Assembly (NCBI RefSeq): GCF_034479635.1
Contig: NZ_CP140153.1
Location: 627,501 to 691,500 of the forward strand
DNA: 64,000 nucleotides
Source of the DNA: Guyparkeria halophila
Lineage (GTDB): Bacteria > Pseudomonadota > Gammaproteobacteria > Halothiobacillales > Halothiobacillaceae
Direction: 5' to 3'
Position 1 is the first letter of the stretch; every line of letters begins with the position of its first letter. The position numbers were made by a program, and so were the translations under genes. This document shows positions 48,945-55,235 of this stretch, one piece after another. Below the pieces are notes generated by a model. That model saw nothing but the letters and a program-made list of their open reading frames with translations. It ran no database searches and had not been told where the DNA came from.

Positions 48945-49335
48945 GGTCCGGGGTGATCGGGCGCTATCGCTCGTCGCGGGCGTCTGTGTTGCGCCCAAAG
49001 TGGTGAAATCTGTCCAATAACACGTTATATTGGCAGGTCTAGGATTGAGACCGCCGGGCCCTAACGGGCGCATCCGCGGTTGATGGCAGCCTGCTCGGTC
49101 GGCGATGATCTCGCCGCCCGGCGGGCTGCCGTCGTCATGGGCTGCGTTGATCGCGTTGCACTCTTTGCTTTCGAGCAAACTCAATGAGAAGTGGATGACC
49201 ATCCGGGGCACGCCCCCGGATGCGGGGACGGTTACCCCGAAATCGGACGCTCGCTCCGGTGGTTTGTCTACCGTCGAGTCGATCGTCAAGTCATTTAAGT
49301 CAGTGAAACGCGCAAGTTTCGAGGTGAGTACTCTC
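48945..49335 (+). promoter_or_regulatory. Structured leader region of ilvI
   Basis: This 391-base gap before ilvI contains an inverted repeat CCAATA/TATTGG (49014-49019 and 49028-49033) overlapping a TATATT-like -10, a nested hairpin (outer GGCAGCC/GGCTGCC at 49085-49091 and 49124-49130, inner CGGCGA/TCGCCG at 49100-49105 and 49111-49116) and a strong 9-bp hairpin CATCCGGGG/CCCCGGATG (49200-49208 and 49214-49222). A possible 34-codon frame (49083-49187) overlaps the nested hairpin and has a few Val codons (VVMGCVDRVAL), but no ribosome site. The structure suggests regulation of branched-chain synthesis; the mechanism is uncertain. Confidence 0.5.
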
Positions 49336-53443: not shown

Positions 53444-53475
53444 ATCGGAGCGCCTGGGTCGTTAACTTGGCAAAG

Positions 53476-53589
53476 ATGAGCAGTCGTTTTTACGCAGCCC
53501 GTTGTTCCCTCCCGGCCACCGTTCCGGTGGTGGGGCTGCGTGGCGTCTGCCCGTCGCTGCTGCTGCGACTGCCCCGCTGGGGCTATTGA
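53476..53589 (+). CDS. leuL: Leucine-rich leader peptide upstream of leuA
   Basis: A 37-codon frame that begins ATG at 53476 and ends TGA at 53587-53589. Residues 27-32 are SLLLRL, encoded by CTG-CTG-CTG-CGA-CTG (53557-53571), close to the peptide end as in leucine attenuators. Hairpins frame it: a nested stem (ACGCAGCCC/GGGCTGCGT at 53492-53500 and 53533-53541, with inner CCACCG/CGGTGG at 53516-53521 and 53525-53530) lies within the peptide before the Leu codons, and a terminator-like hairpin lies just before leuA. No strong ribosome site precedes the ATG (only GGCAAAG). It is proposed as the control element of leuA; the evidence is codon content, position and structure. Confidence 0.65.
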   Translation: MSSRFYAARCSLPATVPVVGLRGVCPSLLLRLPRWGY

Positions 53590-53657
53590 GAGACGATGCC
53601 TGGCGAGGCGATCCACGCGACCAACTACCGACTAGATAAAGAACGTCCGACGGGAAG

Positions 53658-53684
53658 ACCCCGGCGGCGACACCCGAGGTTTTT
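53658..53684 (+). promoter_or_regulatory. Terminator-like hairpin and T-run overlapping the leuA ribosome site
   Basis: ACCCCGG (53658-53664) pairs with CCGAGGT (53674-53680) with one A-C mismatch, and TTTTT follows. GAGG (53676-53679), the leuA ribosome site, lies in the second arm, so the hairpin could stop transcription or mask translation start. An alternative stem CGGG/CCCG (53651-53654 and 53660-53663) shares the first arm, giving a switchable pair. Confidence 0.5.
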
Positions 53685-53687
53685 GCC

Positions 53688-55235
53688 ATGAGCAGCAGTG
53701 ACTCCCTGATCATCTTCGACACCACGCTCCGCGACGGCGAGCAGAGCCCGGGCGCGTCCATGACGCGTGACGAGAAGCTGCGCATCGCCCGTCAGCTCGA
53801 GCGACTGGGCGTGGACGTCATTGAGGCCGGCTTTGCCGCGGCGAGCGAGGGTGATTTCAACGCCATTCGCACCATCGCCGAGCACGTGGAACACTCCACC
53901 GTCTGCTCGCTGGCGCGCGCCGGCGAAAAGGACGTGCGTCGTGCCGGCGAGGCGGTCTCGCCGGCACCCAAGCGTCGTATCCACACCTTCATCGCCACCA
54001 GCCCGATCCACATGGAAAAGAAGCTCCGCATGACGCCCGACGAGGTGGTCGGGCATGCGGTGAACGCGGTCAAGATCGCGCGTGAGTACACCGACGACGT
54101 CGAATTCTCGGCCGAGGACGCGGTGCGCTCGGACATGGACTTCCTGGTGCGGGTGTTCGAGGCGGTCATCGAGGCCGGCGCGACCACGCTCAATGTGCCG
54201 GATACCGTCGGCTATGCCACGCCGGGGCAATGGGGCGAGCAGATGGCGACCTTGATCGAGCGGGTCAAGGGCTCGGACAAGGTGGTCTGGTCGACGCACT
54301 GCCACAACGACCTCGGTCTGGCCGTGGCCAATTCGCTGGCCGCGGTGCGCTCGGGATTCCGTCAGGTCGAGTGCACCATCAATGGTCTCGGCGAGCGGGC
54401 CGGCAACGCCGCGCTCGAGGAAGTCGTCATGGCCACCCGCACCCGGCCGGACATCTACGGCGTTTCGACCCGTATCGATGCCACCCAGATCGTGCCGACC
54501 TCCAAGCTGGTCTCGACCATCACCGGCTACCCGGTGCAGCCGAACAAGGCGATCGTGGGGGCCAACGCCTTCGCGCACGAGTCTGGCATCCACCAGGATG
54601 GCGTGCTCAAGCACCGCGAGACCTACGAGATCATGCGCGCCGAGGACGTCGGCTGGTCGACCAACCGGTTGTCGCTGGGCAAGCTCTCCGGGCGCAACGC
54701 CTTCAAGAGTCGCCTGAAGGATCTGGGTGTCGAGCTCGAGAGCGAAGAGGCGCTCAACGACGCCTTCCGTCGATTCAAGGAACTCGCCGACAAGAAACGC
54801 GAGATCTTCGACGAGGACATCCAGGCGCTGGTCTCCGAGGTCTATGACGAGCAGGAGGAGCTCTTCCGCCTGGTCGCCCTGCATGTCTGCTCCGAGACCG
54901 GCGAGACACCGGAGGCGACCATCACCGCCTCGATCCGCGGCGAGGAGATGACCGCCACGGCCACCGGGGCCGGCCCAGTCGACGCCGCGCTGGCCGCGAT
55001 CGAGAAGATCGTCGCCTCGGGCGCGAACCTGCAGCTCTATTCGGTCAACAACATCACCAGTGGCACCGACGCCCAGGGCGAGGTCAACGTGCGCCTGGAG
55101 CGCGCCGGTCGCATCGTGACGGGGCAGGGCGCGGACACCGACATCGTGATCGCCTCGGCGAAGGCCTACCTCAACGCCATCGAGCGCCTCGAGCATCCGC
55201 CCAAGCGCGCCCATCCGCAAATGGGTGACGTGTGA
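53688..55235 (+). CDS. leuA: 2-isopropylmalate synthase
   Basis: First committed leucine step, condensing 2-ketoisovalerate with acetyl-CoA. The 515 residues include the catalytic motif [14 protein letters not shown] (near residue 10-24), the metal motif [16 protein letters not shown] and [14 protein letters not shown], plus [17 protein letters not shown] and the C-terminal regulatory domain with [20 protein letters not shown] that binds leucine. It is downstream of a leader peptide. ATG at 53688 follows GAGG with 8 bases. Confidence 0.97.

Follow-up and report, generated by a model that had tools for sequence, protein, structure and literature searches.

How is leuA controlled in Guyparkeria halophila, where a leucine-rich leader frame precedes the gene? 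LeuA commits carbon to leucine, and its control in Escherichia coli is the textbook transcription attenuator. The locus was studied in a stretch of 64,000 nt (hereafter, the window), where the gene order is ilvB-ilvH/N-ilvC-pssA-leuA (names other than leuA were given by eye from the sequence). As the initial annotation had it, pssA lies upstream and leuA is a lone gene and not part of leuABCD, since no leuBCD follows it in the window. The closest named leuA locus is that of Guyparkeria sp. SCN-R1, with 99% LeuA identity. The features of the leader are collected in Table 1. Further upstream, about 300 nt (49020-49330) precede the conserved part of ilvB and contain a TATATT-like hexamer and GC-rich repeats; a separate leader ahead of ilvB is possible there.

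Table 1. Elements of the leuA leader and their positions in the window.
Feature	Position	Strand	Basis or conservation
-35 element TTGAAT (putative), overlaps pssA stop codon	53440-53445	+	TTGAA invariant in 9 genus loci
-10 element TAACTT (putative), 17-nt spacer	53463-53468	+	T, A and final T invariant in genus
Upstream reading frame, predicted leaderless; leucine leader peptide, 37 codons, stop TGA 53587-53589	53476-53589	+
P0, nested hairpin inside the frame	53492-53541	+	helices 98-99% paired; 3 pairs changed on both sides in genus
P4 5' arm GTCGCTGCTGCT, overlaps Leu run	53553-53564	+	invariant in genus
Leu run CTG CTG CTG CGA CTG (control codons)	53557-53571	+	conserved in genus
P1, small hairpin where the Leu run ends (GCCCC gct GGGGC)	53571-53583	+
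P2 hairpin (GCCU-GGCG-AGGC) and pseudoknot, GCG 53603-53605 with CGC 53616-53618	53598-53618	+	covariation
P3, hairpin upstream of leuA ribosome site (CCGaCGGG/CCCGgCGG)	53647-53667	+	kept in all 9 genus loci
leuA Shine-Dalgarno GAGG	53676-53679	+	sequence and spacing; invariant in genus
leuA, 2-isopropylmalate synthase	53688-55235	+	TIGR00973 above cut-off, E 9e-212
P4 3' arm, leuA codons 2-5 (AGC AGC AGT GAC)	53691-53702	+

The leader frame and its promoter

The leader frame sits between pssA and leuA and translates as MSSRFYAARCSLPATVPVVGLRGVCPSLLLRLPRWGY*. It has the 37 codons initially described, ends 98 nt from the leuA ATG at 53688 and carries the CTG CTG CTG CGA CTG run near its 3' end. 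Conservation of the Leu codons and stems in relatives had been named as the check, and both are kept, in the same layout of frame, Leu run and stems, in eight other members of the genus. SLLLRLP is retained in eight of the nine genus loci; the ninth (L009) is short of one CTG, with its frame intact. A divergent genus-level relative (L013) has neither the leader frame nor the AGCAGCAG start of leuA, which is consistent with a joint loss of the leader and AGCAGCAG.

Class-wide, 211 different sequences upstream of leuA were compared, and 90 of them contain a short frame in which six codons close to the end include four or more Leu. This is a strong enrichment, as the same count was 7 for the reverse complements and between 4 and 15 for block shuffles. 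CTGCGACTGC was present in 42 of the 211 leaders and in none antisense. The body of the peptide is another matter: the dN/dS of the leader frame is about 0.61 in the genus loci, where the codon positions vary nearly evenly, so most of it appears little constrained. Since peptide conservation is weak beyond the C-terminus, the frame is argued from its Leu codons, the placement of its promoter and the keeping of the frame, not from the peptide sequence. Judged on these grounds, all of them drawn from sequence, the leucine leader peptide before leuA is real.

The rare Arg codon CGA inside the Leu run (53566-53568, and homologous positions in relatives) is far commoner than expected. Among the final nine codons of 96 leaders, it accounts for 57 of 106 Arg codons, versus 18 of 247 elsewhere and 5 of 127 in five genes of the window. 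In the betaproteobacterial leuA loci (L041-L110), many frames end in LLLRxAR and have a GC-rich stop hairpin and then a C-rich stretch behind them; this variant is without the GRCG/ACGY pseudoknot core described below.

The initial annotation had overlooked a promoter and a leaderless start, as well as the conserved mini-pseudoknot. For a class-wide promoter profile, the sole criterion for the ATG was that it shared the reading frame of the Leu run. A -10-like hexamer peaked at -13/-12 of this ATG and a -35-like hexamer (TTGACA) at -36/-35, and a joint promoter at that position was found in 40 of 121 loci, versus 0-7 at shifted positions. Furthermore, no Shine-Dalgarno sequence was seen before the frames class-wide (mean match 2.4, versus 2.6 in random sequence and 4.1 before leuA). 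Given a -10 placed 12-13 nt upstream of the ATG and the lack of a ribosome site, we predict a leaderless frame: transcription would start at 53475-53476, at or beside the ATG, and translation would begin directly on it. A generic promoter scan reported no promoter in the leader region at its threshold, since the candidate -10 of this genome matches at only three of six positions; the promoter case in this window rests on conservation.

Hairpins, the pseudoknot core and the terminator question

Inside the frame, the outer stem of P0 pairs ACGCAGCCC (53492-53500) with GGGCTGCGT (53533-53541), and the inner stem pairs CCACC (53516-53520) with GGTGG (53526-53530), plus one G-U. The nested 9-plus-6-bp stem of the initial annotation is therefore present, and it is kept in the genus with covariation. 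At the Leu run and stop, and exactly there, class-wide folding is 3-4 kcal/mol better than that of shuffles. The same excess appeared when Leu count was the sole criterion for choosing loci; the profile was repeated in this way because the earlier P1 counts were partly circular, the loci having been chosen with a hairpin term. The arm sequences of P1 vary between lineages.

P3 has an energy of -9.7 to -15.9 kcal/mol across the nine genus loci, and it is not an intrinsic terminator because no T run lies directly 3' of it. Its 5' arm and the apical part of P1 (53573-53582; 53647-53667) are near direct repeats, either of which can pair with CCCGGCGG; a further alternative pairing through CCCGGCGG is possible.

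A terminator-like hairpin with T5 had also been proposed over the leuA ribosome site, in line with the logic of E. coli leuL. The T5 is there (53680-53684), and the sequence of this genome allows a hairpin of -7.0 kcal/mol with T4-5 behind it. On the other hand, a terminator scan of the leader region gave zero terminator-like sites, the hairpin falls to -4.6, -2.8 or -1.5 kcal/mol in relatives, and the T run is broken (TTTAT) in two genus members. Terminators downstream of the frames were not clearly enriched class-wide (11 of 69 versus 12 of 138 shuffles at -8 kcal/mol), and a few relatives, e.g. L029 and L121, carry good terminator-like hairpins. An intrinsic terminator was rejected for this leader on the scan, the hairpin's lack of conservation and the class-wide counts. 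The Rfam Leu_leader covariance model, moreover, gave no match in the leaders of 20 relatives. These results make classical transcription attenuation, in which a terminator hairpin competes with an antiterminator freed by stalling, highly improbable here, even though the Leu-run leader peptide, the in-frame hairpins and the alternative pairings are what it would predict.

Downstream of the stop codon, a consensus core of NCCU-GRCG-AGGN followed by ACGY was found. Its loop R and the downstream Y are G-C in 38 leaders, A-U in 11, G-U in 3 and A-C in none (Fisher p 6e-9, a statistic that ignores relatedness), and the A-U version occurs in at least three families, twice beside a close relative with G-U. 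The outer pair of P2 varies too, with 25 G-C, 16 C-G, 4 G-U, 3 A-U, 2 U-A and 1 U-G pairs and 5 mismatches. A mini-pseudoknot is thus supported by the R:Y covariation.

Regarding its distribution, 75 of 105 leaders of the class draw have the frame and hairpin, and 33 have the pseudoknot core. A covariance model of the core gave one strong match per genome, and all matches of at least 28 bits in 57 relatives adjoin leuA by coordinates. Among 398 genomes drawn over the phylum, a strong match was found in just two, both before leuA, so the core appears to be a trait of particular gammaproteobacterial lineages. Rfam gave no gathering-level match to the leader in the window and none up to E 5 around it. 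In the open-access literature, subscription papers being outside the scope, no prior proteobacterial leuA element with these features was found beyond the leuL-type leaders of enterics and Shewanella. It is apparently an uncatalogued RNA switch, conserved in many Gammaproteobacteria and absent from Rfam.

Weak matches of the R1 model outside leuA (below about 32 bits) were set aside as chance; those examined had no leuA and resembled Leu-rich or repetitive coding sequence.

Such strong conservation of the core could also indicate that a protein or small molecule binds the pseudoknot and hairpin region, the Leu-rich frame being secondary. Protein binding was proposed for the actinobacterial LEU element, where leader-codon mutations departed from the predictions of classical attenuation (PMC1262725). 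This is improbable here, since many members with a Leu run and stop hairpin do without the core, and the core is rarely found without the frame (2 of 33); the Leu codons are the constant part. It is scarcely conceivable that the leader is a Leu-rich, GC-rich stretch arisen by chance with no regulatory element in it. CTG is indeed the commonest Leu codon here, and the whole-leader folding energy is ordinary (z -0.19), a value uninformative as evidence; the class-wide enrichment, the promoter placement, the covariation and the leuA-specific model matches contradict this explanation.

Pairing of the Leu run with the leuA start

An alternative stem competing at the leuA start had been part of the initial annotation, and it is supported in the form of a pairing between the Leu run and the leuA start region (P4). 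It comprises 12 contiguous pairs, one of them G-U, is predicted in the minimum free energy fold of this leader and is the closing helix of the RNAalifold genus consensus. P4 does not vary within the genus, and covariation is therefore silent on it. Nevertheless, the four degenerate leuA codons in P4 are nucleotide-invariant in the nine genus loci, whereas only 36.5% of comparable codons are, and the chance of four such codons is 0.365 to the fourth power, or 0.018; matches of 12 bp occur in 0.14% of 36-nt windows.

The partners of the Leu run elsewhere in the class differ. Its complementarity to the leuA ribosome site exceeds that of mismatched species pairs after row and column (composition) effects are removed (z -5.0); in the same permutation test, no such excess was seen for the 27 nt after the stop (z -0.2). 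In this window the run pairs with codons 2-5. Class-wide, complementarity was found to the -18..-1 region of leuA (z -4.0) and likewise to -51..-18 (z -4.0), so that precisely which stretch pairs varies from lineage to lineage. A simple duplex scan of the Leu run and start gave a small effect (mean z -0.47), being a weaker test than the composition-corrected permutation and the simulation described next.

In this simulation, a ribosome-sized stretch was masked and the cost of opening the leuA start was computed, with folding that left out pseudoknots, proteins and kinetics. Masking the Leu run cut this cost by a class mean of 1.23 ± 0.19 kcal/mol. Control masks far upstream gave 0.36-0.41, a mask over the stop codon gave 0.31 and masks downstream about 0; the mask 40 nt before the stop gave an intermediate 0.84 kcal/mol, and that window overlaps the start of the run. 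Of the nine genus loci, six gained 3.8-5.0 kcal/mol and two about 1.6-1.9, and L009 had no predicted opening, losing 1.5 kcal/mol. The initial proposal that a ribosome at the CTG run frees the leuA start is thereby supported in simulation, in which the masking was relieved.

Taken together, these results lead us to lean, with modest confidence, towards a leucine-responsive translational attenuator, in which leuA would be switched on by exposure of its start site when leucine is short. Transcription would begin at the ATG of the leaderless leader-peptide frame. With enough leucyl-tRNA, ribosomes would complete the frame and leave, and the freed Leu run would pair with the first leuA codons, enclosing P1, P2 with its pseudoknot, and P3, and blocking leuA initiation. 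Under leucine shortage, a ribosome would stall on the Leu codons, P4 would not form and leuA would be translated. The pseudoknot may help to organise the enclosed region.

The main rival is Rho-dependent attenuation, in which the untranslated stretch to leuA would let Rho terminate unless a stalled ribosome or an altered structure prevented it. E. coli tnaC is a precedent for this type of control. Rho has also been suggested for mycobacterial cys leaders (PMC1262725). The lack of an intrinsic terminator agrees with it, as do the C-rich stretches seen by eye after the stop in several relatives, and a blocked leuA start would itself favour Rho action. As the main mechanism it is nonetheless rather unlikely, since no conserved Rho site was identified in the leaders and it leaves both the complementarity of the Leu run to the leuA start and the constraint on the start codons unexplained. 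It could act alongside translational attenuation as a secondary effect.

Comparison with known systems

In ermC-type translation attenuation, a ribosome stalled in a leader frame, there on a drug, exposes a downstream start. The proposed leuA switch would share the leader-frame stall that exposes the start, with the difference that one arm of the blocking helix consists of the very codons that exert control.

The leuL leaders of enterics (Rfam Leu_leader) and the leuL-type leuA attenuator of Shewanella (PMC2659441) are alike in having a Leu-rich leader peptide before leuA and in letting the ribosome position pick between RNA structures, and a short Leu-run frame lies ahead of the leu gene here as well. 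What stands of the initially proposed leuL-style attenuation is the leader peptide, its in-frame Leu codons, the alternative pairing and the simulated relief; the terminator does not. The leader before this single leuA after pssA, unlike that of leuABCD, has a frame predicted to be leaderless and a pseudoknot, and it sets itself apart from the enteric Leu_leader because neither an intrinsic terminator before the first structural gene nor an Rfam match was found. This suggests that in many other Gammaproteobacteria the same kind of leader peptide senses leucine with a different output.

The ilvB-II uORF of Corynebacterium (PMC10272879; described in PMC11109978) is likewise a uORF attenuator for branched-chain amino acids that comparative genomics brought to light. 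It regulates ilvBNC in another phylum and does so through a predicted intrinsic terminator.

The closest architecture, by description, is that of the actinobacterial LEU element (Seliverstov et al. 2005, PMC1262725), in which a Leu-run frame before leuA is accompanied by a pseudoknot, there is no terminator and the start region of leuA is the pairing partner of the Leu run. The leader described here shares the position, the short Leu-run frame and the lack of a detected terminator. It also has a pseudoknot, which may or may not correspond to that of the LEU element, and a candidate pairing of the Leu run with the leuA start region. The GRCG...ACGY core, the stop-codon hairpin and CTG-CGA-CTG are described from the present element. 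The LEU element belongs to another phylum and its pairing covers the Shine-Dalgarno box, whereas the 12-bp pairing here covers leuA codons 2-5.

More broadly, it is tentatively proposed, at a little under even confidence, that non-enteric Gammaproteobacteria have a leaderless-uORF translational attenuator whose control codons themselves mask the leuA start and whose stop-codon hairpin and minimal H-type pseudoknot organise it, as an independent or ancient counterpart of the LEU element. Leader frames of this kind are easily missed, and the element is absent from Rfam. It offers a simple and testable system for studying what part a leaderless ribosome and a tiny pseudoknot play in gating a downstream start, and for learning whether the puzzling LEU element works alike.
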